Positions 3,293 to 38,542 are shown, counted from the first letter of the stretch. The stretch is 39,246 nucleotides of DNA from Bacillota bacterium (GCA_021799275.1 JAJZAT010000027.1:1-39246); one strand, 5' to 3'. The notes: a model not told the origin generated them from the letters alone. Translations and numbers: made by a program.

Positions 3293-3408
3293 CCTGGCAC
3301 GTCCTCTCGGGGGAGTGGAAGCATGGCGTGGGTCATGCCGAAGACGCAGCGGTCGCAAAGGAGAACGTCTGGTCCGAGCGTCAGGTTGCGCTGCGTGAGG
3401 AAGGCCCT

Positions 3409-6080: not shown

Positions 6081-6085
6081 GGCCT

Positions 6086-7438
6086 GTGGCCACGAGAATC
6101 GAGGTCCACGACGTGACGCGGCTCGGCTGGGCGCGGGAACGGATCGATGGGGCGACCTCGCCGCGGCAGATGCTGGACGAGGTGGTGGAAGCCGTCGTGC
6201 GCAATGCCACCTGGCGCGGCGCGGAATGCCTCAACCTCCTGGCGCCGGAGGCGCCGATGAGCCCGACGGTGCGGGCGCTCCTGTCCGCGGAGGTGGGGCA
6301 GCGGGCCGCGGAGGGGCACATCGGCCCGGAACAGCGCTGGTTCGCGGGAACGCGCCACATCGACGAGATCGAGGCGCTCTGCGTCGAGTTGCTTAAGGAA
6401 GTGTTCCATGCCGACTACGCGGATCACCGCCTGGTCGCCAGCATGATCGGGAACCTCACGGTCTACACCGCCATGACGCGACCGGGCGACACGGTGATGA
6501 GCCTGACGCAGCCGGTGGGCGGCCACTCCAGCAACCGCCCGGACGGGCCGGCGGGCGTGCGGGGCCTGAGGGTCGAGGACGTGCCGACGGATCCGCGGGA
6601 GCTCACGGTGGACGTCGACGCCTTCGCCGACGCCGCCCGGCGCCTCAGGCCGACGCTCGTGGCGCTCGGGGCGTCGATGACGCTCTTTCCCTTGCCGGTG
6701 CGCGAGATCGCCGAGATCATCCGGCCCTGGGGCGGACGCGTGTTCTTCGACGGCGCCCACCAGCTCGGACTGATCGCCGGCGGCCAGTTCCAGGACCCGC
6801 TGGCGGAGGGCGCCGCGGTCCTGACGGGTTCGGCCGGCAAGACCTTCAGCGGCCCGCAGAGCGGCGTGATCGTCTGGAACGACCCGTCCCTCACCGAGCC
6901 GCTGACCACGGCGATCTTCCCCACCCTCGCCGCGACGCACCAGGTCAACCGCGTGGCGGCCCTGGCGGCGGCCGCCGCCGAGTTCCTCGCCTTCGGCGAG
7001 GCCTACATGGCCCAGATCGTCCGCAACGCCCAGGCGCTGGCCGCCGCCTTGCAGGCGCAGGGCGTCACGATGCTCGGGGCCCACAAGGGTTTCACGCGCA
7101 CGCACCAGGCGATCGCCGACGTCAGGGAGCATGGCGGTGGCCTCAGGGTGGCGCAGCTCCTCGAGGGCGCCAACATCATCGTCAACAAGAACCTCCTGCC
7201 CTCCGACACGCCCAGGGACTGGGACCGTCCCGGCGGTGTGCGCATCGGCACGACGGAGGTCACGCGCTGGGGCATGCAGGAAGGGGAGATGGAGGCGATC
7301 GCGGGCTACATCGCGGACGTGCTGCACGGGCGCCGCCCGGCGAACCTGGTCCGCAAGGACGTGATCGCCCTCAGGCGTTCCTTCCCGGCCCTGCAGTACT
7401 GCTATCCGCTCGCCGCGGGCGCGGCGCCGTCCCTGTAG
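6086..7438 (+). CDS. SHMT-like PLP-dependent enzyme
   Basis: A 450-residue fold-type I PLP enzyme of the serine hydroxymethyltransferase clan. Landmarks are EQRWFAGTRHIDEIE (82-96), GHSSNRP (146-152), the PLP-contacting FDGAHQLGLIAGG (Asp222, His225) and the Schiff-base lysine Lys252 in LTGSAGKTFSGPQSG. The core spacing matches SHMT, but the loops differ from GlyA (TTTTHKTLRGP in GlyA). A related aldolase/transaldolase or alpha-methylserine-type hydroxymethyltransferase is therefore as likely as housekeeping GlyA. The GTG start at 6086 follows AAGGAG and sits 5 bases after the regulator's stop. The frame is open to 5921, but that extension overlaps the regulator and was dropped. Confidence 0.85.
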   Translation: MATRIEVHDVTRLGWARERIDGATSPRQMLDEVVEAVVRNATWRGAECLNLLAPEAPMSPTVRALLSAEVGQRAAEGHIGPEQRWFAGTRHIDEIEALCVELLKEVFHADYADHRLVASMIGNLTVYTAMTRPGDTVMSLTQPVGGHSSNRPDGPAGVRGLRVEDVPTDPRELTVDVDAFADAARRLRPTLVALGASMTLFPLPVREIAEIIRPWGGRVFFDGAHQLGLIAGGQFQDPLAEGAAVLTGSAGKTFSGPQSGVIVWNDPSLTEPLTTAIFPTLAATHQVNRVAALAAAAAEFLAFGEAYMAQIVRNAQALAAALQAQGVTMLGAHKGFTRTHQAIADVREHGGGLRVAQLLEGANIIVNKNLLPSDTPRDWDRPGGVRIGTTEVTRWGMQEGEMEAIAGYIADVLHGRRPANLVRKDVIALRRSFPALQYCYPLAAGAAPSL

Positions 7439-7473
7439 GCCTGGCACGACACAAAGCGATCGCAATGGACGAA

Positions 7474-7496
7474 GAGCCGCCGCTTGTCGGCGGCTC
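7474..7496 (+). terminator. hairpin after the SHMT-like gene
   Basis: A perfect 9-bp stem, GAGCCGCCG / CGGCGGCTC, with loop CTTGT lies 35 bases after the stop. No U-tract follows, so efficiency as an intrinsic terminator is uncertain. Confidence 0.5.
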
Positions 7497-7647
7497 GGCG
7501 CATGGCGGGGCCTGATGCGAGGCAGCGGCGCGCGTAGGCAGGGTCTCGACGGACCGGCCGATTGACCTGCGGACGAGCCAGGACCCGGCTCCCGGCGGGA
7601 GAAGACCGCAGCAGGCATCGTGCAATCGGTGGGGACGGAGGCGCGTC

Positions 7648-8923: not shown

Positions 8924-9092
8924 AAACCTGCACCTCCGCATGTTTCTTGTCGCGTTCGAACGATCGCAGCGTTATGGTTTCCGTCCGGGGTGGTGGACAT
9001 GTGCCGTTGTGGTCCGCCGCCTGCGGCGAGGCCGGTCCGTGGGCCGCGCCGGCAACCACTAACCCGCTCCGCGGAGCCGCACCCCTCGCTTT

Positions 9093-9104
9093 CCACAGCT
9101 GTGG
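9093..9104. promoter_or_regulatory. 12-base perfect palindrome
   Basis: CCACAGCTGTGG is a perfect palindrome directly bordering an AT-rich stretch (GATAATATTT), about 170 bases upstream of the tiny peptide start. It could be a regulator site. There is no direct evidence of binding. Confidence 0.35.
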
Positions 9105-9156
9105 GATAATATTTCTGCCCGAAGGTATCTATATCCTGCCGGTCCTCTGGACGTTG

Positions 9157-9170
9157 ACAAATTCATTTGT
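9157..9170. promoter_or_regulatory. inverted repeat ACAAAT-TC-ATTTGT
   Basis: Two 6-base arms are separated by TC in an AT-rich island inside GC-rich DNA. The arm resembles the palindrome at 22592-22604 upstream of the sensor kinase (GACAAA-T-TTTGTC). A common regulator is a speculative possibility. Confidence 0.35.
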
Positions 9171-9279
9171 TCACAATTTGAGAGTCAGATGGACGTGTCT
9201 GGGGAGCATGCCCGACCTGCAACGCGAAGGCGTGGAGCCTCGATGCCCCAGGCCTTCTCCGTGGACCCGCCGACCCGCG

Positions 9280-10263
9280 TCAGACCTCGAGACTGCGTCC
9301 CATGCCGCGTGCGATGGCTGCCTGCGTCACGTAGCCCGCGACCGCGGCGTCGAGTACCCCGATGCCCGTCAGGTCCGCGACGGTGATCTCCTCCTGGCGC
9401 TCCCGGCCAGGCCAGAGGCCCGCGACGATCTCGCCGAGCTCGTGGACGTCGTCCAAGGCCAGGAGGCCTGCGTCCAGCGCGTGGTGCAGCTCGCCCTGGC
9501 GGCTCGCCTGCGCGAGGCTGTCCACCGCCACCCTGTCCGCCTGTCCCAGGACGTCCGCGTCGAGCTCCTGCTTGTGCGGCATGTCGGAGCCGATCGCCGT
9601 CACGTGCGTGCCGGGCCGCAGCCACGGAAGACGCACGACGGGGCTCTGCGCCGGCGTCGTCGTGATCAGGACGTCCACGTCCCGCACCACCTGCTCAGGC
9701 CCGTCGGCGACGATGACCTCGAGTCCGAGTGCCTTGCCGGCCCACGCCGCGTAGGCCTCGGCGTTCGGGCGCGTTCGGCAGTAGACTTTGGCCGTGCGCG
9801 GCGAGCGCACCTCGAGCAAGGCCTCGAGCTGGTACCTCGCCTGGATGCCGCAACCGAGCACCCCGACCGACTGGACGTCGCGGCGGCCGAGCACGTCGGT
9901 CGCGACGGCCCCGGACGCCGCGGTACGCAGGTCCGTGAGAAAGCCGTTGTCGAAGAGCACAGCCCTCAGCTGGCCCGTCGTCGCGTCGAACACCGACACC
10001 ATGCCCGAGCCGACGGGAAGTCCCTTCTCGGGATTCTTGTAGAAGCCCGAGGCCACCTTGATCGAGAAGTACGGGGAGCCTTTGAGATGGGCCCCCTTGA
10101 CGTGGGTCTCGCCGGCCACATCCCTGAAGTCGAAGTTCATCACCTCGGGCAGGATCACCTCGCCGCGGGTGTGCAGGACAAACGCCCGGCGCACGAGGTC
10201 GATCGCCTTACGATAGCCGATGATGCCGCGGATCTCCCGCTCGCTGAGCATGACGACGGACAC
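9280..10263 (-). CDS. ornithine cyclodeaminase/mu-crystallin family enzyme
   Basis: A 327-residue NAD(P)-dependent enzyme. It carries the conserved active-site lysine in SIKVASGF (Lys69), the family signature LFDNGFLTDLRTAASGAVA (about 103-120) and the nucleotide loop VGVLGCGIQA (133-142). Members include ornithine cyclodeaminase, archaeal alanine dehydrogenase, iminosuccinate reductase and the ectoine-degradation protein EutC. The DNGFLTDLRTA segment is closest to the EutC/BhcD-like branch by eye, but no catabolic neighbours support a specific assignment. The frame extends to 10296. The GTG at 10263, behind AGGGAGGA with a 10-base spacer, was preferred, and an ATG at 10251 is the alternative. 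It stands alone between an MFS gene and a gene-free region. Confidence 0.88.
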   Translation of the reverse strand: MSVVMLSEREIRGIIGYRKAIDLVRRAFVLHTRGEVILPEVMNFDFRDVAGETHVKGAHLKGSPYFSIKVASGFYKNPEKGLPVGSGMVSVFDATTGQLRAVLFDNGFLTDLRTAASGAVATDVLGRRDVQSVGVLGCGIQARYQLEALLEVRSPRTAKVYCRTRPNAEAYAAWAGKALGLEVIVADGPEQVVRDVDVLITTTPAQSPVVRLPWLRPGTHVTAIGSDMPHKQELDADVLGQADRVAVDSLAQASRQGELHHALDAGLLALDDVHELGEIVAGLWPGRERQEEITVADLTGIGVLDAAVAGYVTQAAIARGMGRSLEV

Positions 10264-10483
10264 GCGAATCAGTCCTCCCTGGGAGTCTAGGGTCATGTCT
10301 CTGAGGTGCTGTAGAAGCGGCTAGGGAACCTCGGACGCAGCGGGGCTCTGGTTTTCTCGTTCCTGCTTGTCGGCTGGGGGTTGAGGCGAAGGTAGTCCGC
10401 ACCGCGTTACGCATGGGCGGAGTTTCCAATAAGGCCGCTTAAAGAAGGCACGGTTGGATGTGCGGGGAATGCGGGGGCGAAGA

Positions 10484-12636: not shown

Positions 12637-13292
12637 ACACATGCACCTCCAGCTACATGATGAGGCGCAAAGCGCTTCACAGATATACATTCAGGCTTCT
12701 GGACGGTCCAAATAATGGGGCCTTGTTCGGGCGCTGGACGACAGAGGTTTTGCGATTCACGTGGCACATGAAACCAACCAGGAGAACCATGGCGCGAGGT
12801 TGCTGGCTGCGTCGCTTTTGGCGTCCGTCCGCTGCGCTTGCGGTGCCCATTGGTCAGGCGCATGCGCATGCGTCATCCGGCTGAACGGGGTGCAGAGGTC
12901 ATGGCAGTCTGGCGCAAGGGACGCGAGAACTGGCGAGGGCCCCGGGCGGAGGGCGGACCGGGCCCGCGGCGACGGGACGAGGTACGTCCGACCTCGGTGC
13001 GCGGTGCATTCGCCTATTCGTGGTCCGCTCTGCCGGCCGGCAGGGTGCAATCCGCCACGCGACGAGGCGACGGACGCGCCTTCTGAAGAGGCAGTCCGAC
13101 GACGAGCGCGATCTGGCTTCGGTCCCAGACATCGCCGGCCCGGGGCCGGCGCACATGGTCCGAACGGACGTGGTTGCGTGCGAGCGACTGATGCAAGGTC
13201 AGATAGGGCAGCGAACGCGGGCCCTCCTGTTTGGCGCATCTTGCGTAGCATGGAGGCCTTCCTGCCGTCAGCTTTCCTTCAGGGAAGAGAGC
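12637..13292. other. 656-base gene-free region ahead of formate dehydrogenase
   Basis: Open frames exist on both strands, but all look like low-complexity GC-driven frames rich in Arg, Pro and Ser. The only one with a plausible ribosome binding site is a 31-codon frame at 12789, which has no recognisable feature. The region probably carries the promoters of tiny peptide 2 (minus) and of the formate dehydrogenase (plus). A molybdenum-cofactor riboswitch was looked for and not recognised. Confidence 0.5.
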
Positions 13293-15983
13293 GTGAGACT
13301 TGTGGATCTCATTCCCGTCACCATCGATGGTCAGAGAATCGAGGTGCCCGAGGGCACGTCGGTCCTCGAGGCCGCAGAGCTGATCGGGATCGACGTGCCG
13401 CGGCTCTGCCACGACCCCGTGCTGGGCGCCGTGGGCACGTGCCGCCTCTGTGTCGTGGAGATCGACGGCATGCGCAACCTGCGCTCGTCGTGCACGACCA
13501 AGGTGACACCGGAGATGATGGTCCGCACGAAGAGCCCGCGCGTCGTGGAATCGCGCAGGACGGTGCTCGAACTTCTGCTGAGCGACCACCCGGCCGATTG
13601 CCTGACGTGCGAGAAGATGGGGAACTGCAAGCTCGCCGAATACGCCTACGACTACGGCGTCCGCAAGGGCCTGTCGTTCGCGGGCGAGGAGCACCGCTAC
13701 GAGCTCGACGATACGAACCCGTTCATCGTGCGCGACCCGAACAAGTGCATCCTCTGCGGCAAGTGCGTGCGCGCCTGCCAGGAGATCACCGGCAAGAACG
13801 TCCTCGGCTTCGCCTTCAGAGGCTTCGACACGAAGGCGGCGCCCTGGGGCGACACGTCGTACGTCGAGTCCGATTGCATCTTCTGCGGCAACTGCGTCGC
13901 TGTCTGCCCGACCGGCGCCCTGACGGAGAAGGGCATGCAGGGCCAGGGACGCGCCTGGGAGATGGAGAAGGTCCGCACGACCTGCTCCTTCTGCGGCGTC
14001 GGCTGCACCGTCGACCTGAACGTCAAGGACGGCAAGGTCGTCGGCGTCACCTCGACCGACGGTACCGTCAACGATCAGGCCATGTGCGTGAAGGGCCGCT
14101 TCGGCTGGGACTACATCAACAGCGAGAGGCGCCTGACGAAGCCCCTGATCAAACGCGAGGGCCGCTTCGAGGAGGCGTCCTGGGACGAGGCGCTCGACCT
14201 CGTGGCGAGTCGGCTCACGGACCTGAGGGACCGCTACGGGCCCAAGGCCTTCGGTGCGCTCAGTTCCGCCCGCACGACGAACGAGACGAACTATCTCATG
14301 CAGAAGTTCGCGCGGGGGGTGATGGGCACCAACAGCATCGACCATTGTGCCCGTACCTGACACGCCCCGACGGTGGCCGGTCTGGCCACCACATTCGGCA
14401 GCGGCGCGATGACCAATCCCATCGCCGACATCGACCAGGCGGAGCTTCTGCTCCTGATCGGAACGAACACGACGGAAGCCCACCCCGTGATCGGCTACAA
14501 GATGCTGAAGGCGCGACGTGAAGGTGCGCGTCTGATCGTCGTGGACCCTCGGCGCACGGAGCTCGCGGATCTCGCGGACTACTGGCTGCAGCTCAGGCCC
14601 GGCACCGATATCGCGCTGCTCAACGGGCTGATGCACATCATCCTCCAGGAAGGGCTCGAGGACCGGGCGTTCATCGAGGAGCGCTGCGAGAACTTCGAGG
14701 AACTCCGCGACACCGTGGAGCGCTATACGCCGGAGCGTGTCGCGGAGATCACGGGCGTGCCGGTCGAGACGCTCGAAGCCGTCGCGCGCCTCTACGCCAC
14801 CACCGACCGCGCGGCCCTCTACTACACGCTCGGCATCACGGAGCACGTCTCCGGCACGATGAACGTCATGAGCTGCGCGAACCTCGCCATGCTCACGGGC
14901 CACCTCGGCCGCCCGGGCACCGGCGTCAACCCGATCCGCGGGCAGAATAACGTCCAGGGAGCCTGCGACATGGGCGCCCTGCCGAACGTCTACCCGGGCT
15001 ACCAGAACGTGCAGAGCCCCGAGATCCAGGCCAAGTTCGAGCAGGCGTGGGGCGTCCCGCTCTCCGGCGAGATCGGGCTCAAGATCCCGGAGATGTTCGA
15101 CGCCGCGCACCGCGGCGAGCTGAAGGCGATGTACATCCTCGGCGAGAACCCGGTCCTCTCCGACCCGAACACGAACCACATCCGCCAGGGCCTCGAGCAC
15201 CTCGAGTTCCTCGTCGTGCAGGAGATCTTCCTGACGGAGACCGCGCAGTACGCCGACGTGGTGCTGCCGGGCGGCAGCTTCGCCGAGTGCGATGGCACCT
15301 TCACGAACACCGAGCGCCGCGTGCAGCGGGTGCGCAAGGCGGTGGAGCCGCTCGCGGGACTCAGCGACTGGCAGACGGTCGCGGAGGTCATGAGGCGCAT
15401 GGGCATGCCGGCGACCTACCGGGACGCGTCCGAGGTGTTCGACGAGATGGCCGCCCTGACGCCGTCCTACGCGGGCATCAGCTACGAGAGGATCGAGCAC
15501 GACGGTCTGCACTGGCCGTGCCCGACGAAGGACCACCCCGGGACGCCGATTCTGCACGTTGGCAAGTTCAGCCGCGGCAAGGGCCGCTTCCAGGGGATCG
15601 AGCACATCCCGCCGGGCGAGCTGCCCGACGAGAAGTACCCCTTCATTCTCAGCACCGGCCGCGTGCGCGAGCACTACAACGTCACGACCGCCTACTCGCC
15701 GGGCATCATGGCGCTCTGGGGCGAGGAGCACGCCTGGATCAACCCCGAGGACGCCCAGGCTCTTGGCCTTGCGGCCGACAGCCGCGTGCGCGTCTCGTCG
15801 AGGCGCGGCGAGCTCGTGACGGCGATCGAGATCACGGACCGGGTGCCCCCGGGCATGGTCTGGATGAGCTTCCACCATGCCGGGAGTCCGTCGAACGCCC
15901 TGACGAGCCACCTCGTCGATCCGATCAGCGGCACGGGCGAGTACAAGGTCTGCGCCATCAAGGTTGAGAAACTGGCGTCCTGA
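13293..15983 (+). CDS. fdhA: selenocysteine-containing formate dehydrogenase, alpha subunit
   Basis: An 896-residue cytoplasmic molybdenum/tungsten bis-MGD formate dehydrogenase that oxidises formate to CO2 or does the reverse. It comprises a [2Fe-2S] domain (Cys39, 50, 53, 67), a His-Cys cluster site as in NuoG (His99, Cys103, 106, 112), two [4Fe-4S] ferredoxin sites (Cys152-162 and Cys195-205), the catalytic-domain [4Fe-4S] site (Cys231, 234, 238, 265) and a C-terminal dinucleotide-binding domain (STGRVREHYN). An in-frame TGA at 14358-14360 falls exactly at the catalytic Cys/Sec position in CART-U-HAPTVAGL, so residue 356 is read as selenocysteine. A SECIS-like hairpin follows. The size and domain order match the Moorella-type enzyme. 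The GTG start at 13293 follows AGGGAAGAG. No NuoE/F-like partner or FdhD gene is adjacent. Confidence 0.93.
14358..14390 (+). promoter_or_regulatory. selenocysteine UGA and bacterial SECIS element
   Basis: The UGA at 14358-14360 is followed 11 bases later by a perfect 7-bp stem, GGTGGCC (14372-14378) with GGCCACC (14384-14390), closing on loop GGTCT. The E. coli fdhF SECIS also presents GGUCU in its apical loop at the same distance from the UGA, where SelB binds. The coding sequence through the hairpin stays in frame and conserves the family residues. Confidence 0.88.
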
Positions 15984-18206: not shown

Positions 18207-18398
18207 CCCTCCTCCGGCCGGTGCGCCGCCTCATTGCGCAGAGGCTTTGCCATCGGCGCGCGACATCCTGCCCAAGGCCGTGGATTCCGGGAGCTCGTGC
18301 CGGCTCGCGCCGGATCCCGGCCACGGCTCTGCCGCGGCAGCAGGGCAGGGCGCCACGCGGCGCCCTGCAAGCGGGTTCGATCAGACGCGGCGGGCGGA

Positions 18399-19061
18399 TC
18401 AGAGCCGGGTCAGGACCCGCATGAGGGCATCGACCGCCATGCCGACCGTCATGTCGTGCCGGAATTCCTGCAGGGCTGCCATGGTGCCCGGTCGGATCCC
18501 TTCCTCGGCGGAGGCCCTGGCCAGACCGTAGAACGAGGCGGCAAGATCCTCCCGGCCCTTGCCGTCTCCCTCGACCAGCAGGAACGCGTGGATCAGAGCG
18601 AAGTTGCGGCGGCGCCGCTGCGACAGGCCCGCCACCTTCCGCCCGCCGATCGAGAGGTCGTAGCGGCCGGCGCAGATGCTGCCCGCCACCTCGCCGACGA
18701 CGGGCTCAAGACCCAGGTCGCCGAGCGCTTCCGACAGTACCCCGGCCATCAGCTGGAAGCCCGGCTCGATGCCGGGCAGAGCTTCGCCCGCGTAGGCGAT
18801 CGCGACGTTCAGGACGCCCTCGTCGAGCACGACGAGCCGCCCGCCGGAGGAGCGCAGGTGCACCTCGTAGCCGAGGGAGCGGAAGTGCCGGACGGCGTCC
18901 TCCGCCCCCGGCAGGCGCATGTCGCGCATGCCCGGCACGAGGCTTGGACCGTGCAGCCAGAGTCGCGCTCTTTGGGCTTCCTGGCCTTCGGCCAGGTGTT
19001 CGTCGCGGGCGAAACTGGCCTCCAGCGAGCCGAGCGGTCTCAGGTGGAGCTCGACGTCCAG
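18399..19061 (-). CDS. lipL: lipoate/octanoyl-protein transferase (LipL-like)
   Basis: A member of the biotin/lipoyl A/B ligase family, closest to octanoyl-[GcvH]:protein N-octanoyltransferase of Firmicutes. It carries RSSGGRLVVLDEGVLNV, the catalytic-cysteine motif SICAGRYDLSIGGRKVAG and SQRRRRN. The conserved fold begins well before the first canonical start (GTG 18938): the in-frame upstream codons give SLEASFARDEHLAEG and RARLWLHG, matching the family's SFAxDDxL and ARxWxH motifs. No ATG/GTG/TTG exists between the preceding gene's stop (19098) and 18938. CTG at 19061, behind AAGGAAGG, is the best candidate. An ATG inside the ribosome binding site is out of frame, so a single-base error or indel is possible. 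Together with the Cys/Met enzyme upstream it forms a likely operon. Confidence 0.75.
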   Translation of the reverse strand: MDVELHLRPLGSLEASFARDEHLAEGQEAQRARLWLHGPSLVPGMRDMRLPGAEDAVRHFRSLGYEVHLRSSGGRLVVLDEGVLNVAIAYAGEALPGIEPGFQLMAGVLSEALGDLGLEPVVGEVAGSICAGRYDLSIGGRKVAGLSQRRRRNFALIHAFLLVEGDGKGREDLAASFYGLARASAEEGIRPGTMAALQEFRHDMTVGMAVDALMRVLTRL

Positions 19062-19097
19062 GGCCGGATCATCCTTCCTTGCGCAGAGCGGGATGCG

Positions 19098-20273
19098 TCA
19101 GGCCAGGGCCTGCCCGAGGTCCCGGATCAGGTCCTCCGCATCCTCGATGCCGACCGCGATGCGCACGAGATCGGCGGTGATGCCGCCCATGCCTTGGAAC
19201 TCCGGTGGCACGAAGCGGTGGACGGCCGCCACCGGCTGGGTGATGAGCGACTCCACCGAGCCGAGGCTTACGGCGCGGCCGAAGAGCTGGACGCGGTCGA
19301 GGAAGCGGTCGACGGCCGGCTGGCCGCCCCTCAGGCGCACGCTCAGAACGCCGCCAAAGCCCTTCATCTGGCGCTTTGCGAGCTCGTGCTGCGGGTGGCT
19401 CTGGAGGCCGGGATAGAGCACCTCCGCGATGGCCGGGTGGCCTTCGAGATACTCCGCGACAGCCTGGCCGTTCTCGTTCTGCTTCTGCACCCTGAGAGCG
19501 AGCGTCTTGAGGCCGCGGCCGAGCAGCCAGGCGTCGAACGCGTTCAGGGTGCCGCCAAGCTTGCGGGCGACGTCGCTGCAGGCGAGGATGAATTCCGCCG
19601 GGCCCGCGACGGCCCCGGCGATGACGTCACTGTGGCCGTTCAGATACTTCGTGCCGCTGTGGACGACGGCATCGGCGCCGAGGGCGAGCGGCCGCTGGTT
19701 CACCGGGGTCGCGAAGGTGTTGTCGACGATCAGCCGCAGGCCCTTTCGGTGGGCGATCTCGGCGATGGCCGCGATGTCCGCGAGGCGCAGCGTCGGGTTG
19801 CTCGGAGTCTCGAGGTACACGACCTTGGTCTCCGACCGCAAGGCGCCCCGCAGGGCGGAGGGGTCCCTGAGGTCCATGAAGGTGGTCTCGACGCCGAAGC
19901 GCGGCAGGAGATCGTGCAGCAGGCCGAACGTGCCGCCATAGATGTCGGCGTGGGCGATCAGGTGGTCACCGGCGCCGCACAACGCCATGAGGGCGGTCGC
20001 GACCGCCGCCATGCCCGAGGACAGCATGAGGGCCTTCTCCGCGCCCTCCAGCTTCGCGATCTTCGCCTCGGCGACGGTGAAGTTCGGGTTGCCGAGGCGC
20101 GTGTAGATGTAGCCCTCCTTCTGCTCGTTCATGAAGTCGGCCATGCTCTGGTTGGTTGGGAACGCGAATGTCGAGGTCTGGTAGATCGGCGACGTGACGG
20201 ACCCCGAGACGGGATCGGGCGCCTCTCCTTCGTGCACGAGCAGGGAGTTGAGTCCTTTGAGGGTCTCCGCCAT
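19098..20273 (-). CDS. Cys/Met-metabolism PLP enzyme (cystathionine gamma-synthase/lyase family)
   Basis: A 391-residue fold-type I PLP enzyme acting in sulfur amino-acid exchange. Features are the tetramer-contributed phosphate ligands in YIYTRLGNP (Tyr57, Arg59), the ring-stacking Tyr111 in ADIYGGTF, IVDNTFATP (182-190) and the Schiff-base lysine Lys209 in VHSGTKYLNGHSD. These residues are shared by cystathionine gamma-synthase, cystathionine gamma-lyase and methionine gamma-lyase, so the exact reaction is open. The frame is open to 20318, but MAETLKGLN at 20273, behind AAGGAAAG, is the family-typical start. The LipL-like gene follows 37 bases downstream on the same strand. Upstream lies a divergent promoter region shared with the propeller lipoprotein. 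Confidence 0.92.
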   Translation of the reverse strand: MAETLKGLNSLLVHEGEAPDPVSGSVTSPIYQTSTFAFPTNQSMADFMNEQKEGYIYTRLGNPNFTVAEAKIAKLEGAEKALMLSSGMAAVATALMALCGAGDHLIAHADIYGGTFGLLHDLLPRFGVETTFMDLRDPSALRGALRSETKVVYLETPSNPTLRLADIAAIAEIAHRKGLRLIVDNTFATPVNQRPLALGADAVVHSGTKYLNGHSDVIAGAVAGPAEFILACSDVARKLGGTLNAFDAWLLGRGLKTLALRVQKQNENGQAVAEYLEGHPAIAEVLYPGLQSHPQHELAKRQMKGFGGVLSVRLRGGQPAVDRFLDRVQLFGRAVSLGSVESLITQPVAAVHRFVPPEFQGMGGITADLVRIAVGIEDAEDLIRDLGQALA

Positions 20274-20511
20274 CAAGTGTCTTCCTTTCCTTGTGAGAAC
20301 TGCCCCGGCCGGTGGCAAGAACTCCCCCCGACAACTCTAGCAGAGAGCGGCCGCGGCTGCAGGCCCTGCTTGGCGTAACCGGGCGGTCCTGACTTCATGC
20401 GCTGCGGGTGCGGATGACCCGTGCAAGAGGTGCGGATTGCCAGAGGGACCCGGCCGATGCGCAAGGAACTTAGCGACATCGTATGCGGTCCAAGCGGGAG
20501 GAGGAGGGTGT

Positions 20512-22500
20512 ATGGGCGTTGGCCCGCGGCGGCGGAGCGCGGTGGCGGCGGCGGCGCTCGCGGCCGTGGCCCTGTCCCTCGCAGCCTGTGGAAGCGGCGT
20601 CTCCACGGCCCCCTTCGCGCCGGTCGGACGCATCGTCGGTACGACCGAAGGGCGCATCGGGCCCGAGCCCTGGTCCCTCGTGGCGCTCGACTTCCTCACG
20701 GTCCAGCGGGGCTACGTCGCAGGCGAACGCTGCGCCGGGAGCCCTGGGCACTGCGTCGGGGCATTCGGCCGGACCACGGACGGTGGTGCCGATATCGCCT
20801 GGACCCCCCTCGGTCCCGGCTCCCCTTCGGACCTGCAGTTCCTCGGCCCGCAGTTCGGCTGGGTGCTGCTGGGAAATCCCGGCCAGACGGGGCGGCTTCT
20901 CGGCACGACAAACGGCGGGCGCACGTGGACGCGGCTCGATGCGGCCCTCTTCTTCGCCCCGCCCCGCTTCCTCACAAGCGACTTCGGCTACGCCATCGCC
21001 GTCCGGCCTGGGCGGGGCGGGGCGTTCTCGGCCTCGTCGCTTGAGCTCACACGGGATGGCGGGCGCACCTGGCAGAGCGTCGCGACAGGCGGCTACCTGC
21101 CGGCCTACGCGGACTTCCCCTCGGAGAACCAGGGTTACGTCGCCGGCTGGCAGTGCCGTGGCCAGGGCCCGCAGTCCGTCTGTCGGGCCGCGATCCTCGG
21201 CACGCAGGACGGTGGCGCGCATTGGCGGGTATTGCAGTCGGTGGGCGAGAGTTCCGTCGGCAACACGGGCACCTTCGCGCTCGACTTCCTTTCGCCGAGC
21301 GTCGGCTTCGCGGCCTTGCCGGATCTTCAGGGCTGCACGATGGGCGGCTGCCTGCCGGGGCTCGAAGAGACGCAGGATGGCGGCCGCACGTGGCGGACGC
21401 TGCAGACGGCCTACCGCTGGGGGGCGCAGATCCAGGCCGGCTGGGCGAGCCCTCCCGTCTTCACGAGCGCAAAGACGGGCTGGATCACCCTTTCGCCGGG
21501 AGCGGGTCCGGGCGCTGGCGGCGTTCTCGTGACCTTGGACGGCGGGAGCAGCTTCCATCAGTTCTTCGCCCGCGGATTCACGGCCGAAGCTCTCGATCCC
21601 GTCGGCGGTGTCGCCTATGCCATCGCGGGCTCCGTGCCGCCGGGAAGCACGGCGGGCGCGGCGCTTGTCCGCATCACGCCCCGTGGCGGGGTGCGCCGCA
21701 TCTGGCCCGCCGCCGTGCCGGCGAGCGCGTTCGCGGCGCTCGAGGGGGCACGCCTCTACGGCGTCGGGCTGGCTGACGCCGCCGGGGCCCTGCTCTCGAG
21801 CCAGGATGGCGGGCGGACCTGGTCCGTGCGCGGCGACTTGCCCGGTGATCCGCCCTGGCTCGCCTCCTTCCCGGGCGGCCGCATGGGCTACCTCTTGGCG
21901 CAGAGCGCCGCGGGCGGAGCGCTTCTCTACACCACAGACGACGGCGGCAAGACGTGGCGGGCGGACGGTGGGGTGCTCCCGGAGCAGCCGAGCTATGCCC
22001 GCTTCTTCGGCGGTGGCCAGGCCATCGCGCTCGAGCCTCGGCGCAGTGGCGGCGAGGTCCTGCGCAGCACGGACGGAGGCCACACCTGGCGCCGGTACGG
22101 CCGGCTGCCCGCCGGCTATGCCTGGGCCGCGGCGTTCGCGAGCGCCGACGTGGGCTATGCCTACGTGGAGGACGGGGAGAGGCTCGCCATCTACGAGACG
22201 CGGGACGGTGGCCGGCGCTGGCGCACCCTCTTGCGACTGCCTCGTCTGCCGCGAAACGTCACGCCCGGCACCGCCATGGCGGCCGACCGGACGGGCTTGC
22301 TCGCTCTGCAGCGCTACGCAGGAGAGGCAGGGTACCTGGTGACGCGCGACGGCGGCCGGGACTGGCGCGTCCTGGAGATCGGCGGGGCTCGTGGCGCCTC
22401 CGCGATCGCCGTGCAGGGACGGTCCACGGTGCTGCTCGAGACGACCACGGGCCTGCTGCGCTCCACCGACGGCGGGAAGGTCTGGACCTACATCCAGTGA
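20512..22500 (+). CDS. Asp-box/BNR beta-propeller lipoprotein, paralogue A
   Basis: A 662-residue exported lipoprotein (signal with RRR, lipobox SLAAC, Cys26). The mature protein contains about 12 copies of the Asp-box pattern S/T-x-D-G-G-x-x-W, for example TTNGGRTWTRL, TQDGGRTWRTL, STDGGHTWRRYG and STDGGKVWTYIQ, spaced roughly 40-60 residues apart. This defines a sialidase/YCF48-type beta propeller. YCF48/HCF136 relatives assist photosystem assembly in plants and cyanobacteria. Lipoprotein versions are common in Firmicutes with unknown roles. Cys pairs in loops (GERCAGSPGHCVG, LQGCTMGGCLPG) could form disulfides. GGAGGAGGAGGG precedes the ATG at 20512. A paralogue lies at 31577-33517. Confidence 0.9.
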   Translation: MGVGPRRRSAVAAAALAAVALSLAACGSGVSTAPFAPVGRIVGTTEGRIGPEPWSLVALDFLTVQRGYVAGERCAGSPGHCVGAFGRTTDGGADIAWTPLGPGSPSDLQFLGPQFGWVLLGNPGQTGRLLGTTNGGRTWTRLDAALFFAPPRFLTSDFGYAIAVRPGRGGAFSASSLELTRDGGRTWQSVATGGYLPAYADFPSENQGYVAGWQCRGQGPQSVCRAAILGTQDGGAHWRVLQSVGESSVGNTGTFALDFLSPSVGFAALPDLQGCTMGGCLPGLEETQDGGRTWRTLQTAYRWGAQIQAGWASPPVFTSAKTGWITLSPGAGPGAGGVLVTLDGGSSFHQFFARGFTAEALDPVGGVAYAIAGSVPPGSTAGAALVRITPRGGVRRIWPAAVPASAFAALEGARLYGVGLADAAGALLSSQDGGRTWSVRGDLPGDPPWLASFPGGRMGYLLAQSAAGGALLYTTDDGGKTWRADGGVLPEQPSYARFFGGGQAIALEPRRSGGEVLRSTDGGHTWRRYGRLPAGYAWAAAFASADVGYAYVEDGERLAIYETRDGGRRWRTLLRLPRLPRNVTPGTAMAADRTGLLALQRYAGEAGYLVTRDGGRDWRVLEIGGARGASAIAVQGRSTVLLETTTGLLRSTDGGKVWTYIQ

Positions 22501-22591
22501 TCTGGGTTGGGATCGCTTCCCTCGATGGCAGGGGCCAAGCGGTCCCTTCTGCGCCTGCGGCCCATTCCTGGAAGGAGTCGGTGCTCGCAGA

Positions 22592-22604
22592 GACAAATTT
22601 TGTC
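22592..22604. promoter_or_regulatory. 13-base palindrome upstream of the sensor kinase
   Basis: GACAAA-T-TTTGTC lies 49 bases ahead of the kinase start in otherwise GC-rich DNA. It could be an operator. It shares its arm with the repeat at 9157-9170. Confidence 0.4.
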
Positions 22605-22652
22605 CGGTCACGGGTCCGAATATGGTCGCGGCAGATCGCGGGGAGGTGCAGC

Positions 22653-31411: not shown

Positions 31412-31576
31412 GCCATCACGCTCCCCGGCTGTCCTACGGCGCGTTCCCACAGGATTCCTGCGCCAAGGCAGGGTTAGCGGTCGTGGCTCGAGCGACGCAA
31501 AGTCGCGGCCGGTCGGCAGGAACCCTTGGGCGCACCTTGAAAGGAGTTGCCCAAAAGGGCAGCGGGAGGTGGCTGC

Positions 31577-33517
31577 GTGCGGCACAACACAGGTGGCGGA
31601 ACTGGTCGGACCAGATGGGCTGTCGGCGCGCTCGCCGCCATGGCCGCCATGTCGCTGGCCGCCTGTGGCACAGGCTCCGGTCATGCGGCGGCCCAGGGCA
31701 CGAGCCTCAAGTCCCTCCTGCGCATGAAGCCGCGCCCGAGCGAGGTGCGGCTCCTGTCGGGTCAGCCGCCGCATCTCACGGCGCTTCAGTTCGAGACGCC
31801 CGAGGACGGCTGGGCTGGTGGGCAGGGCGTCATCCTCGCGACCCGCGATGGCGGGCGGAGCTGGCGCCCCCAGTACCTTGGCGGGGGCAACGTGAGCGGC
31901 TTCTCGATCCTCTCCCGGATCGTCGCCTTCGCCGCCACCAGCGTCGGGCTGCTCGGCACGAACGACGGCCAGACCTGGAAGAGGATCAGCGCGCAGCCGC
32001 TCTGGCAGGTCCAGTTCCTCACGCCCACGCAAGGGTATGGCCTCGGCGAAGCCGCGGGGACCTCGTATCCTTCGTCCTTCAGCCTCCTCACCACGACGGA
32101 CGGCGGACAGGTGTGGCACAAGATCCAGATCGGCCCCGTCGAGCAGGCCTGCTTCTTCGCGGGCGGCGTCGGCCTCGCGGTGCCGACGACGCCGTACTTT
32201 GGCGGCGGCCTGACGGTGCGGCGCACCACCGACGGCGGCCAGACCTGGAGCACCGTACTCAGGGTGCCTGCGGCGCACGCGGCGAACCTCGCCTGCACCG
32301 GGGACGGAGGCGCCTGGCTCGTGGCCGCCGGTGGTGCCGGCATGAGCCAAGAGTCCTACTCCGTCTTCCGCAGCGGCGATCAGGGTGCCACATGGACGGC
32401 GGCGCTCGCCGTTTCCACCGCGGGCGCCGGGCCGGCGCCGGGCGACACCAAGGGCGCCGCGATCGGGCCGGGGTCGTCGCCCGGGCCGATCGCGGTCCTC
32501 AGCAGGAAGCAGGCGGCCATGACGGGCCTATGCGAGGCCTGCACCGGCAGTGGCATCGCGATGGTGGAGACGACGTCGGACGGCGGCGGCCACTGGCGGA
32601 AGACGCCCGCCCTGCCGCCGGTCTCGGCACCCGACGTGCTCGCCCTCGCTGCCTTGACGCCCAAGGACATGTGGCTCCTCTTCAATGTCGGTTCGGGACA
32701 GTCCGAGATCGCCTCGACCACGGACGGCGGTGCCGCCTGGCGCATCCTCTACACCGCGCCGCGGACCTTGCCGCCCTTCTCCCTGACCTACGCGTCGCCC
32801 GAGGTCGCGTTCGGCTTCGGCACGAGCGCCTATTCCCTGCGTGTCGAGCGCAGCGACGACGGCGGCCGGACCTGGCGGACGGTCGGGAGGCTGCCCAAAG
32901 GCACGAACCCGTACAACTACAGCCCGATCGCGGCCGTAGGCACGCGCGACCTCTATGTGGTGGCATCCGGCGTGCTCCTTGCTTCGAACGACGGCGGACG
33001 GCACTGGCGCGTCGTCCGCAAGGACATCTCGGGCAATGTGCACGGCCTCAAGTTCACGACGCCCCAGGCGGGCTGCTACTCGGTGATCGGGGCGGGCCGG
33101 TCTCGCCAGGACTTCGAGACCCGCGACGGCGGCAAGACGTGGAGGAAGGCAGCCCTGCAGGGCGTGCCGGCGGCGATCTGCGCCGTGGCCGGCGGCCATC
33201 CGGCGCTCGCCAACGAGGCCGCGGGGCTCATCCGCCGCCTGACCGGCCCCACCGGCAATGCAGCCGTGCCCCCGGACTATCTGTCCTTCGCGGGCACGAC
33301 GGCGAGCAGCATCTGGCTCGCGTTCTCGAACGATCCCGTCAGCAGGCTCTACATCCTCTCGGCCAGCAGGCCGCCCGCGGTGACCGCCTGGCCGGACCAT
33401 GAGATCAATCCCGCCGCCCTCGTGCCGTTCGGGGACCGCGAGGCCTATCTCCTTACCACGGACGGTCGCCTGCTGCGGACGACGGATCAGGGCAGGACGT
33501 GGACGCAGCAGCCTTGA
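31577..33517 (+). CDS. Asp-box/BNR beta-propeller lipoprotein, paralogue B
   Basis: A 646-residue exported lipoprotein with lipobox SLAAC (Cys30), related in architecture to the gene at 20512. It contains about 11 Asp-box motifs, such as TRDGGRSWRPQ, TTDGGQTWSTV, SDDGGRTWRTV, SNDGGRHWRVV, TRDGGKTWRKA and the C-terminal TTDQGRTWTQQP, predicting one or more beta-propeller domains. A Cys-containing loop (GLCEACTG) may be disulfide-bonded. The GTG at 31577 has GGGAGGTG ahead and directly precedes the signal peptide. The ATG further upstream adds a stretch outside the ribosome binding site. A GNAT gene begins 16 bases after the stop, followed by a HAD gene, so the three likely form an operon. Its role is unknown. 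Confidence 0.88.
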   Translation: MRHNTGGGTGRTRWAVGALAAMAAMSLAACGTGSGHAAAQGTSLKSLLRMKPRPSEVRLLSGQPPHLTALQFETPEDGWAGGQGVILATRDGGRSWRPQYLGGGNVSGFSILSRIVAFAATSVGLLGTNDGQTWKRISAQPLWQVQFLTPTQGYGLGEAAGTSYPSSFSLLTTTDGGQVWHKIQIGPVEQACFFAGGVGLAVPTTPYFGGGLTVRRTTDGGQTWSTVLRVPAAHAANLACTGDGGAWLVAAGGAGMSQESYSVFRSGDQGATWTAALAVSTAGAGPAPGDTKGAAIGPGSSPGPIAVLSRKQAAMTGLCEACTGSGIAMVETTSDGGGHWRKTPALPPVSAPDVLALAALTPKDMWLLFNVGSGQSEIASTTDGGAAWRILYTAPRTLPPFSLTYASPEVAFGFGTSAYSLRVERSDDGGRTWRTVGRLPKGTNPYNYSPIAAVGTRDLYVVASGVLLASNDGGRHWRVVRKDISGNVHGLKFTTPQAGCYSVIGAGRSRQDFETRDGGKTWRKAALQGVPAAICAVAGGHPALANEAAGLIRRLTGPTGNAAVPPDYLSFAGTTASSIWLAFSNDPVSRLYILSASRPPAVTAWPDHEINPAALVPFGDREAYLLTTDGRLLRTTDQGRTWTQQP

Positions 33518-34784: not shown

Positions 34785-36953
34785 CTACGGTTCCTGGACG
34801 CCGCGCCGCAGCACAGAGGGCACAAGACCCTGGCAGAACCGACGAAAGCACACCTCCTGCAGTCCCTCGCCCGCCCTTTGCGCCTTCGCCGCCTGCCAGC
34901 GCACCTCGCGGAGCCTCGTCTGCGCTGCCCGCATGCTGCCGAGGTACGCCTGAGCCTCGGACCGCCAGGACAGCGCAAGGCTCTGGCGCTCTCCGTCGAT
35001 CGTCTGCAGCGTCCTCGCGGCCTCTGCCCTTAGCCCTGCGACGTCCCGCAGGAACTCGCGCAGGGCCGCGTGGCGCTGGAGGCGCAGGTCCTGGAGCGCG
35101 CGGCGGAGTTCCTCCTCGGCCTCATGCTCCTCGAGAGGCGGCAGGGCCGCCGGCACGGCGGCGTGGGCCAGGGCCGTGACCTCGCGGTGCCACTGCGCGA
35201 TGCGCCGGGCCCGTTCGGGATCGATCGCCTCGATGTGGTGTCGCCGCCCGTCGCGGCCCACCGCAAGCTGCTCGCCCACCGCCTGGAGGTCGTAGGCGGA
35301 CAGGATGCCGGCCGCGACCAGCTGCAGCTTCGCGACGCGCCGCACGTCGAGGAGCGGGTCGTCCATCACCCGGTGGCTTTCGAGGACGCGCCGCTCCTCC
35401 GTGATCTGGAAGGCCCGCAGACGCTCCTCGCGGCGCCTCTGCGCGAGGTCGCGCAGTTCGGCCTCGCGCCGGTGGTAGCCTTGCAGGCCGAGGCCCTGGC
35501 GCAAGGCGCGCTCCTGCCGGCGCAGTTCGCCCTGGACTTCCTGCGCCTGCGCCCGCAGCCGCTCCTCATGCCGCTGCGAGGCCGTCAGCGCCGCGGCGTA
35601 CCGCGACGAGGTCGCGTTCAGCAGGGCGACCGTCCTCCGCTCGTCCCTGCGCAGCCGCGAGACCTGCCGCCGCAGGGCGTGGGCCCTGCGGGCATCGTCG
35701 CCCAAACGGTAGTGGAGGTAGAGGACGAGGGCGCCGAGGCTGGTCCAGGGCAGGACGCCCAGGGCGAGCCCCGTGCGCACCGCGGGACCCAGCGCGAGCA
35801 GCAGCCAGACCCCGGCGAGCCACGCGGCCGCGATCCAGCGGTCGAGCGGGGCAGGACGCAAACGCTCCTCCGGTATGGGGGCAGCCTGCGGCATGAGCCA
35901 GCCGGCGGCGCTCCCCACCCACTGCGTGGCATCGGGTGGGAGCCAGTCGTCGGGCGCCCGCTCCACCTGAAGGGCCACGGCGCGGGTCGGCACCGGCGAC
36001 GGCCGCGGGGCGGGCGCACCCGCGAGGGTGACCCGTCCGGCGGCGGGTTTCGCGGCTTCGGCCAGGACGTCGCGCAGCGGCAGGGTGCGGGGCAGCGCGG
36101 GCACCTCCCGCGGCGGCCGCGACGCAGCCCGCAGCAGCCGCTCCGCGAGCTCCGTCAGGCCTGGACGCCCAAGAGCCCTCAGCCGCTGCCAGACCGCCGC
36201 ATGGGGATCAAGAAAGTCCTCGCGGCGGAAGAGGAGACACTCGTCGCCCGCGCCCTGCTCCCGCCAGAGCTCAGGGCGACAGGCGAGCGCCGCGATCGAG
36301 AGGAAGACGACCCAGCCGGAGAAGCGATCGAGCCAGGGACCGAAATCCTGGTGCGAGCGGCCCGGGTGCTGGTAGTTCGGGTGGCCGAGCTCGAGCGACG
36401 GCCGAGCGGCGAGCGACGGCACGTACATCCCGTCGTAGTCCAGGAGGACGAGGCGCCCGGAGTCGACGAGGACGTTGCCGTGCTGGAGGTCGCCGTGGGC
36501 GATGCCGCCCTGCTCGAGGTCATGCAGCAGGTGAAGCCACGAAGCGGCCAGATCCTCGAGAGCCGACCGATCGCCGAGGTGGGCGCGCAGGTACGCGTCG
36601 AGACGCTCGCCTCCGGCCCACGCCATCTTGACGATCGGCTGCCAGCTGCCGGCGACGAGCACGCCACGCTCCTGGAACGCGAAGGGGACGAAGTACGGCA
36701 GGTGACCGCCGCGCAGACGGCGGGAGATCTCGGCGTAGCGCTCGCCCTGCTCGCTCCGGAGATGCTGGAAGCAGCGCACCGCCCAGTCTCCGCCCTGGCC
36801 CTGCAGGCGGAAGACGACGGCCATGTTGCCGCTTCGCGCCTTGGGCAGGCCCATGGCGTCGCACTCCGGCGCGCAGAGCCGCAGGTCGGGGTCCGCAAAG
36901 ACGAGGCCGGGGTGCTCGACCGCCTCCTGGTAGGCGCTCAGCTGCGCCGCCAT
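34785..36953 (-). CDS. membrane-anchored protein kinase-like protein of a TerY-P triad
   Basis: A 722-residue protein with an N-terminal kinase-like domain (about 40-300). The catalytic loop is HGDLQHGN (Asp155, Asn160) and the metal-binding segment is LLDYDGM (Asp172/Asp174); the Lys of strand 3 is less clear. A Pro-rich linker, two membrane helices (about 372-390 and 393-415), a long Arg/Glu-rich coiled coil (about 420-550), a possible helix-hairpin-helix segment (LVAAGILSAYDLQAVG) and further helices follow. This order, together with the adjacent PP2C-like and VWA genes, matches the TerY-P triad described for bacterial Ter-type stress systems. The ATG at 36953 follows GGGAGGCGG and overlaps the phosphatase gene end by 16 bases. 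Its substrates are unknown. Confidence 0.85.
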   Translation of the reverse strand: MAAQLSAYQEAVEHPGLVFADPDLRLCAPECDAMGLPKARSGNMAVVFRLQGQGGDWAVRCFQHLRSEQGERYAEISRRLRGGHLPYFVPFAFQERGVLVAGSWQPIVKMAWAGGERLDAYLRAHLGDRSALEDLAASWLHLLHDLEQGGIAHGDLQHGNVLVDSGRLVLLDYDGMYVPSLAARPSLELGHPNYQHPGRSHQDFGPWLDRFSGWVVFLSIAALACRPELWREQGAGDECLLFRREDFLDPHAAVWQRLRALGRPGLTELAERLLRAASRPPREVPALPRTLPLRDVLAEAAKPAAGRVTLAGAPAPRPSPVPTRAVALQVERAPDDWLPPDATQWVGSAAGWLMPQAAPIPEERLRPAPLDRWIAAAWLAGVWLLLALGPAVRTGLALGVLPWTSLGALVLYLHYRLGDDARRAHALRRQVSRLRRDERRTVALLNATSSRYAAALTASQRHEERLRAQAQEVQGELRRQERALRQGLGLQGYHRREAELRDLAQRRREERLRAFQITEERRVLESHRVMDDPLLDVRRVAKLQLVAAGILSAYDLQAVGEQLAVGRDGRRHHIEAIDPERARRIAQWHREVTALAHAAVPAALPPLEEHEAEEELRRALQDLRLQRHAALREFLRDVAGLRAEAARTLQTIDGERQSLALSWRSEAQAYLGSMRAAQTRLREVRWQAAKAQRAGEGLQEVCFRRFCQGLVPSVLRRGVQEP

Positions 36954-37690
36954 GGCGCCGCCTCCCGGCACTTGAGGGCCAAAAGCGTCACGTCGTCGTT
37001 GCGCAGCTGCCCGGTGCGGCGCCGGACCGCGGCCCAGCGGGCGAACTCCCGGGGGCCGGCGTCCGCGAGGCGGAGCAGGGTGGGGAAGGGTCGGCCGCGC
37101 CGTTCGGCCTTGCCGAGGCACCAGTGGGCGAGGGCGTCGCTCATCAGGAGGAAGCTGTCGCCAGGGCGCCAGTCGCCTTCGGTTTCGGCGAACAGGGCCT
37201 CGGCTCCGAGGCCGGAGCAGATCGCCTGGGGCCGCAGCGGCAGGTCGCCCTCCGCGCGGAACGGGAAGGATCTGACGAGTCTTGCGCCGCGCAGGTGGAA
37301 GAGGCAGCTGTCACCGATCGCGACGGCGTGCCAGCGCCCTCCGCCCGCCGCGCCGCCCACTTCGAGGCCGACGAACGTGGCGTAGGCCCCCGCTCGCAGC
37401 TTCTCCTCGGCGTACCAGGGCAGGGGGCGATCGCTGACGGCGCCCTGCCAGAGCCGGCGCAGGTCCTCGAGATCCGCCCGGTTTCCTGTCCCCGGCTGCC
37501 ACTGCCCCTGGGCGTAGGCCTGCACGAGCATGGTCGCCCAGAGGCCTGCGAAGGACGACTCGGTCGCCCCGTCCGCGACCGCGAGCCGCCAGGTGCCGCT
37601 CGCGGGGTCTTCCTGGCAGGCCCAGGCGTCCTCATACTCCCGGATGGATGAGCCCGCCTTCGGCAGGGCGTGCGCGCGGCAGGTCGGCAT
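36938..37690 (-). CDS. PP2C-family protein phosphatase of the TerY-P triad
   Basis: A 250-residue PPM/PP2C-type serine/threonine phosphatase. The metal-binding motifs are EDAW (20-23), VADGATES (Asp40), AIGDSCLF (Asp127), LLMSDALAHW (Asp185) and NDDVTLLAL (Asp232/233). It would dephosphorylate targets of the kinase encoded by the overlapping downstream gene. It starts 6 bases after the VWA gene stop and its 3' end overlaps the kinase gene by 16 bases, giving a tightly coupled operon. This order is as known for TerY-P triads. Confidence 0.88.
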   Translation of the reverse strand: MPTCRAHALPKAGSSIREYEDAWACQEDPASGTWRLAVADGATESSFAGLWATMLVQAYAQGQWQPGTGNRADLEDLRRLWQGAVSDRPLPWYAEEKLRAGAYATFVGLEVGGAAGGGRWHAVAIGDSCLFHLRGARLVRSFPFRAEGDLPLRPQAICSGLGAEALFAETEGDWRPGDSFLLMSDALAHWCLGKAERRGRPFPTLLRLADAGPREFARWAAVRRRTGQLRNDDVTLLALKCREAAPWRRS

Positions 37691-37696
37691 GGAGGG

Positions 37697-38542
37697 TCAG
37701 CGGAGATTCGCGGGGCGCGTGCCGATGTCGAGGAAGCTCACGAGCGCCGCGGGTTCGGCGTTGAAGATGAAGCCGCGGGCGCCGGGCGCCGCCGGGTAGC
37801 CCTCGAGCTGGAGGTGCGAGCGCATCGTGTCGGGGAGATCGCTCGAGATCTCGTAGAGCATGTGCGCGTAGGGGTCCTCGACCCCGGGATCCGCGGCGGG
37901 GAAACTGATCTCCCGGCTGGCGTGGGATGAGATGTGCACGTTGAAGAGCATCAGGTTGCCGTCGGTGGTGGCGAGGCCCCGCAGGCTCTCGGCCGCGAGG
38001 GAGGGATCGCCGTCCGTCGACTCGCCGTCGGTGATGTGGAAGACGATCGGGGGATGGCTGAAGGGGTGGGTCTGCACCCAGTGGTCAAGGACGCGGCGGG
38101 CCTCCGCGAAGGCCTGGCACATCGGCGTGCCGCCGTGCGCGACGGGGTCGAACCAGACGGGGAACTTGACGTCCTGCTCCAGGGTGCCGCCGGCGCCGTC
38201 CGGGATCTTGCGCCGCCGCGTCTCGATGCGCAGGGGCGCGTCCGCGAGATCGGCGACGGCCACGAGCTGCCGGCCCGTGAGCGGCCCGCCGAAGGCCGGC
38301 CCCACCTGGTCGCAGTAGCCGAGCACGCCGACGTCGAAGTAGTTGCGCACCCCTTCGTCCTTGGAGCACTTCAGCACAATGTTGCGCAGGAGGTTGTTGA
38401 CGATGGTCGCCACCTCCTGCGCCTTGCTCTCGTGCGCGCCGCCCTGCGCTCCGCCCCAGGGGTCCGCCATCGATCCGGACTGGTCGATCAGGAACAGGAA
38501 GCAGGACGGGTTCGCCCGGCTGATCTCGGCACTGTACGGCAT
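37697..38542 (-). CDS. VWA-domain protein (TerY-like) of the TerY-P triad
   Basis: A 281-residue von Willebrand factor A domain protein, first gene of the operon. The MIDAS metal site is complete: DQSGSM (Asp20, Ser22, Ser24), GGTPM and ITDGEST. The protein lacks a signal peptide and is expected in the cytoplasm. VWA domains in this context are thought to bind partner or client proteins in a phosphorylation-dependent system. Length and motif order fit the TerY group, and no other ter genes (TerB, TerC, TerD) lie in the window. The frame opens at 38722, but the ATG at 38542, behind GGAGGTG with a 6-base spacer, was chosen. Confidence 0.9.
   Translation of the reverse strand: MPYSAEISRANPSCFLFLIDQSGSMADPWGGAQGGAHESKAQEVATIVNNLLRNIVLKCSKDEGVRNYFDVGVLGYCDQVGPAFGGPLTGRQLVAVADLADAPLRIETRRRKIPDGAGGTLEQDVKFPVWFDPVAHGGTPMCQAFAEARRVLDHWVQTHPFSHPPIVFHITDGESTDGDPSLAAESLRGLATTDGNLMLFNVHISSHASREISFPAADPGVEDPYAHMLYEISSDLPDTMRSHLQLEGYPAAPGARGFIFNAEPAALVSFLDIGTRPANLR

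Follow-up and report, generated by a model that had tools for sequence, protein, structure and literature searches.

The OB-type TerY-P triad was reportedly described as a defence system by Gao et al. in 2020. It consists of a VWA protein, a PP2C phosphatase and a kinase with an OB fold (PADLOC TerY/PP2C/STK_OB), is a stand-alone antiphage system (PMC11090510) and acts against T7-like phages (PMC7699616); most cells with TerY-P survive infection (PMC10889362). A zinc-ribbon type with the same three components is found in CoCoNuT/Ter loci (PMC11090510). In Escherichia coli, YegL, PphC (YegK) and YegI are likewise encoded in the order VWA, PP2C, kinase, and YegI is an inner-membrane kinase that has membrane helices, a coiled coil and an HhH tail as well as its own PP2C. 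According to one report, YegI is membrane-bound, autophosphorylates and is dephosphorylated by PphC; the same report cites it as autophosphorylating without canonical motifs and describes no inducing condition as known (PMC13232886). The housekeeping PknB/PrpC pair combines a Hanks-fold kinase with a PP2C partner.

The triad described here is located in a 39,246-nucleotide stretch of DNA from a Bacillota bacterium (hereafter the window; GCA_021799275.1 JAJZAT010000027.1:1-39246). Its VWA, PP2C and kinase-domain families and its gene order are those of OB-tailed TerY-P and, like that system, it stands alone without ter genes. However, the window kinase lacks the OB fold of STK_OB and has instead two membrane helices, a coiled coil and an HhH-like head. 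In contrast to the zinc-ribbon type, no zinc ribbon is recognised in the window kinase, no McrBC/CoCoNuT genes adjoin the triad and the genome is devoid of TerB, TerC and TerD. The PknB/PrpC pair shares the Hanks fold and the PP2C partner, whereas the window kinase has no external sensor domain and the genome encodes a separate kinase/PP2C pair on contig C49. What is mainly new is the joining of a TerY-P-type kinase to a YegI-type membrane/HhH tail, and the width of its spread; part of these findings may already have been described elsewhere in the literature.

Gene layout and the VWA and PP2C proteins

The triad is made up of the following genes:

37697..38542, minus strand: TerY-like VWA gene, 281 amino acids (PADLOC TerY, full length)
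36938..37690, minus strand: PP2C-type Ser/Thr phosphatase gene, 250 amino acids (PADLOC PP2C)
34785..36953, minus strand: Ser/Thr-kinase-like gene, 722 amino acids, with a membrane/coiled-coil/HhH tail (PADLOC STK_OB, AlphaFold2)

A good Shine–Dalgarno sequence (GGAGGT) is located just 5′ of the VWA start. The VWA and PP2C genes are separated by 6 bases (37691–37696) and the PP2C and kinase genes overlap by 16 bases (36938–36953), which agrees exactly, for all three ORFs, with the tight coupling given in the preliminary description; its assignment to TerY-P-type triads is likewise borne out by PADLOC, which places all three proteins among TerY-P components. The three proteins are 98.6, 88 and 86% identical to their counterparts in the nearest member of the genus, and dN/dS is 0.04–0.54 in every pairwise comparison within the genus. 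Judged from these substitution patterns, the triad genes are real and under purifying selection in the genus. Plus-strand frames over the kinase (e.g., 35070–37385) were rejected as shadow frames of high G+C, because it is the minus-strand proteins that have close genus relatives, these dN/dS values and hundreds of distant relatives.

Elsewhere in the window, long frames without a Pfam match are found on the minus strand (962–4099, 5447–7618, 13014–15911, 20470–22611) and on the plus strand (8947–10290, 18234–20378), several of which are probably shadow frames of G+C-rich sequence. Rfam recognises no RNA feature in the window.

The VWA protein matches the PADLOC TerY model over its full length (E 3.1e-99) and is also seen by Pfam as VWA. 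Its MIDAS is intact (D20-x-S22-x-S24...T139...D172), with the corresponding residues present in 53–55 of 55 homologues. In genus comparisons its dN/dS is 0.04–0.29, against 0.20–0.54 for PP2C and kinase, and it is the most constrained triad member in every one of them, which would fit an adaptor with several partners. The phosphatase matches PADLOC PP2C (E 1.6e-21) and Pfam PP2C_2 (6.8e-5, just under the cut-off); its metal-binding Asp residues (D21, D40-G41, D185, D232-D233) are present, and are kept in 57–58 of 60 homologues. The triad is real, well conserved and intact, and its three genes form one operon.

The kinase domain and its membrane-rooted tail

The kinase gene encodes the following parts:

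36066..36896, minus strand: kinase domain, residues 20–296, with R60, H153-G-D155-L-Q-x-x-N160, D172-Y-D174 and D209 (Hanks-type fold; invariant residues)
35793..35849, minus strand: membrane helix 1, residues 369–387 (hydropathy 2.03; helix in the AlphaFold model)
35703..35771, minus strand: membrane helix 2, residues 395–417 (hydropathy 1.69; helix in the model)
35376..35699, minus strand: coiled-coil arm 1, residues 419–526 (long helices, pLDDT above 93)
35139..35396, minus strand: head, residues 520–605, (HhH)2-like with an inserted β-hairpin (model pLDDT 95)
34866..35138, minus strand: coiled-coil arm 2, residues 606–696 (one long helix in the model)

PADLOC STK_OB matches residues 6–297 of the protein only (E 2.2e-74), covering just positions 6–299 of the 562 in the profile, whereas the match reaches position 460 in the OB-type kinase L089, which has an OB-fold match, and 423 in the OB-type kinase L112. 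Pfam, including Pkinase, gives no match in the window kinase. The AlphaFold2 model (mean pLDDT 89.6; pTM 0.49) is confident in the kinase domain, which has an ordinary Hanks-type fold similar to PDK1 (Z 16.4, rmsd 3.4, 238 residues), CK2 and PknB (5u94, Z 15.9).

All 90 aligned relatives have Gly42, Ala58, His153, Asp155, Leu156, Asn160, Asp172 and Asp209. The β3 VAIK Lys is replaced by Arg60; the relatives have Arg (81 of 90) or Lys (9 of 90) at this position, and L089 and L112 also have Arg, so that Arg60 is a trait of the family and no loss in the window copy. The preliminary description had named loss of ATP-binding residues as an argument against its reading; Asp155, Asn160 and Asp172 are kept in all 90 relatives and Arg60 is typical of the family. 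The catalytic core is thus complete, and the protein is predicted to have kinase activity. As a separate observation, the OB-type TerY-P triad of L089 (Archaeoglobales archaeon contig, 1820–3871) has a kinase that also carries a long TPR array.

In the model, a disordered linker leads into the tail, in which two membrane helices are followed by a long helical arm, a small domain and then another long arm. Judged from this order of elements, the small domain would form the head of an antiparallel stalk, although the low pTM makes the placing of the tail relative to the kinase unreliable. Membrane helix 1 is found at the same place in relatives, with hydropathy of up to 3.15. Membrane helices 1 and 2 are separated by only about 7 residues, and a loop this short would put kinase and stalk on one side of the membrane, presumably the cytoplasmic one. 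The two membrane helices and the long coiled coil predicted earlier are thus located at residues 369–417 and in the helices of the two arms, and the possible HhH segment corresponds to the HhH-like head between them.

Within the genus, the arms are fast-evolving: arm 1 is 50% and 30% identical and the two arms 50% and 27–30%, against 78% and 53% for the head. The better conservation of the head than of the arms indicates that it is probably functional. Relatives, L062 and L046 among them, have a canonical double HhH with GIG loops as their head, and Pfam HHH_5 is recognised in 14 of 22. The window head has two degenerate GhG loops and is matched by no Pfam model; the degeneracy extends to the window's genus. 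HhH loops normally contact nucleic acid. The best VIA fold matches of the window head are weak (RNAP alpha-CTD, Z 4.9; Dbh, Z 4.3), and below the top two come PH-like and chemokine folds, for which the inserted β-hairpin is probably responsible. A Foldseek search of the PDB with the window head gave no match with E below 0.17.

Relationship to YegI and spread of HhH-tailed triads

A match that the preliminary description missed links the membrane/HhH tail to that of E. coli YegI. The tail profiles align with an hhalign probability of 98.6% (E 7e-16), compared with 0.3% for a reversed YegI tail as control, and YegI is also recovered, at 6e-14 and at equal distance behind the catalytic motif, by a head profile from which it had been left out. 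On the evidence of these profiles, the window kinase tail is homologous to the YegI tail. The homology is visible by profiles only; direct BLASTP of the window kinase against YegI was uninformative, with no notable alignment. The other parts of the E. coli triad are distant, with hhalign probabilities of 23% for the kinase domains, 1.4% for PP2C and PphC, and 81%, over a partial alignment, for the VWA proteins. With the PADLOC TerY model, YegL of E. coli gives no match, and it has 219 residues compared with 281 in the TerY-type window protein. Since kinase, PP2C and VWA belong to other subfamilies and the TerY model gives no match, the relation to the YegI triad is, as far as these comparisons go, one of shared architecture and tail, without orthology of the whole triad.

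When one genome per species was scanned, the HhH head was found in at least 24 kinases besides that of the window, among the best 79 loci listed. VWA and PP2C genes are located directly upstream on a common strand in 23 of the 24, and the remaining kinase gene starts at a contig edge; the order VWA–PP2C–kinase is strict in all 23 HhH-tailed loci with full flanks among the matches listed. These kinases are found, among the matches listed, in Bacillota, Chloroflexota, Planctomycetota, Verrucomicrobiota, Pseudomonadota, Myxococcota, Actinomycetota, Abditibacteriota, Coprothermobacterota and Thermomicrobiota. A lack of conservation of the gene order had also been named in advance as an argument against the triad; the order is kept across about ten phyla.

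In the kinase tree, the HhH head spans several clades, with 12 changes, at least four of which are forced by well-supported branches. This scattering indicates that tails have been gained or lost repeatedly. A single origin of the tail was rejected (AU p 1e-5), with the bootstrap unsettled and some rows odd in composition. The sister group of the window's genus consists of short, tail-less kinases of Rokuibacteriota and Gemmatimonadota (97/90), and the window clade is placed near the STK-OB-type kinases L089 and L112 with a support of 92/90, which is below the starred level.

A Paenibacillus triad is built on the same plan as that of the window. Several loci of this family have features of their own. 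Obscuribacterales (Melainabacteria) have tandem kinases of the window family (L056:8100-13850, L057:9938-14096, L043:9977-14821), some of which lack the HGD catalytic motif and may be pseudokinases; orphan kinases, with a variety of tails, are also numerous there. At L043:7612-8370 and L075:2-769, the gene directly 5′ of the TerY-P VWA gene encodes a MotB/OmpA-like protein of the membrane that recalls ZorB, and related proteins are found near kinases in L087 and L094. In three Fermentithermobacillaceae genomes, a WD40-like β-propeller gene directly follows the kinase gene (L047:7797-8485, L048:11993-13609, L049:11968-13587), and its product has an N-terminal membrane segment.

Genomic context and candidate functions

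The preliminary description had noted no TerB/C/D in the window, and none is present in the whole source genome either (3.14 Mb, 97.5% complete). The additional adjacent kinase and PP2C genes on C49 make the window triad a second, dedicated module. Of the five other species in the genus, four carry the triad (G001, G002, G004, G005), and in each of them the same ABM-monooxygenase gene adjoins it upstream; G001 also retains downstream HAD, GNAT and Ycf48-like genes. The triad is fixed at one chromosomal site in the genus. Outside the genus, strong TerY matches are rare in the phylum (three in 398 genomes, including the window's own). The Ycf48-like/BNR-repeat protein of the window (31547–33517, plus strand) has a lipoprotein-like start and is conserved with its neighbours in the genus relative L016.

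A search for conserved clients across genomes had been proposed; all-against-all clustering of the neighbours yielded no recurrent fourth gene beyond local synteny. Among 117 neighbours of relatives, PADLOC and Pfam found no defence family in more than two members, a weak result given that there is no background control. A mobile element was considered and rejected: 50,697 phage records contain no copy, and 72,556 plasmid records contain only two distant kinase matches, to about one third of the protein, on cyanobacterial plasmids.

By analogy with OB-type TerY-P and with YegI/PphC, the triad is probably a stand-alone, membrane-anchored phosphorylation switch of the TerY-P type. Kinase domain and stalk would both be cytoplasmic; the kinase would autophosphorylate, and phosphorylate a client, once a cytoplasmic ligand at the membrane, with nucleic acid or a partner protein as candidates, engages the head or stalk. 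The PP2C protein would reset the kinase, as PphC does for YegI, and the VWA protein may act as a metal-dependent adaptor joining kinase, phosphatase and client. Of the stand-alone stress or defence switch suggested earlier, the stand-alone part holds, as ter genes are absent; the stress or defence part stays a conjecture, as no client, defence island or phage copy was found.

Being fixed at one chromosomal locus, the triad is more likely to serve regulation or the response to stress than to be a mobile cassette for defence. Antiphage defence, in which phage would be sensed at the membrane and phosphorylation would block it while the cell survives, is accordingly unlikely, although it keeps a real share because the kinase domain is near the OB-type kinases (92/90). 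The VWA and PP2C proteins and the kinase domain match PADLOC defence models, and OB-type triads are antiphage by experiment, with T7-like phages as targets and most cells surviving (PMC11090510, PMC7699616, PMC10889362); however, the site is constant across the genus, the phage and plasmid records and the relatives' neighbours (with no background control) offer little sign of such a cassette, and the OB tail is absent. Also unlikely is the wider proposal that TerY-P is one conserved kinase/PP2C/VWA chassis with exchanged nucleic-acid-binding OB, zinc-ribbon or HhH tails as sensors; in this widespread branch, an HhH head carried by a coiled-coil stalk rooted in the membrane would then read nucleic acid at the inner membrane, be it RNA or DNA, such as that of an entering phage.

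That the kinase fold is a pseudokinase scaffold, binding nucleotide or partners without phosphate transfer, is improbable. Arg at the β3 position in 81 of 90 relatives and the failure of Pfam Pkinase to detect the protein would be in keeping with it, but each of the 90 relatives has the Asp and Asn of HGDLQxxN, D172 and D209, position 60 alternates between Lys and Arg, a dedicated PP2C adjoins the kinase in the triads, and YegI also autophosphorylates without canonical motifs (as cited in PMC13232886). It is still less credible that the triad is the orthologue of yegL–pphC–yegI with its housekeeping role: equal gene order and a homologous tail are set against kinase domains of different subfamilies, a PphC that barely aligns to the window PP2C, a TerY model without a match to YegL, and the lack of a YegD-like neighbour at the window locus.

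The membrane-anchored switch favoured here links the antiphage and Ter-associated TerY-P triads to the orphan YegI–PphC–YegL system of E. coli, in that different kinase domains have a common membrane/HhH tail. This points to the tail as the functionally constant element of a membrane-anchored class that is found in about ten phyla, and research on YegI gains a comparative frame from the HhH-tailed TerY-P triads.
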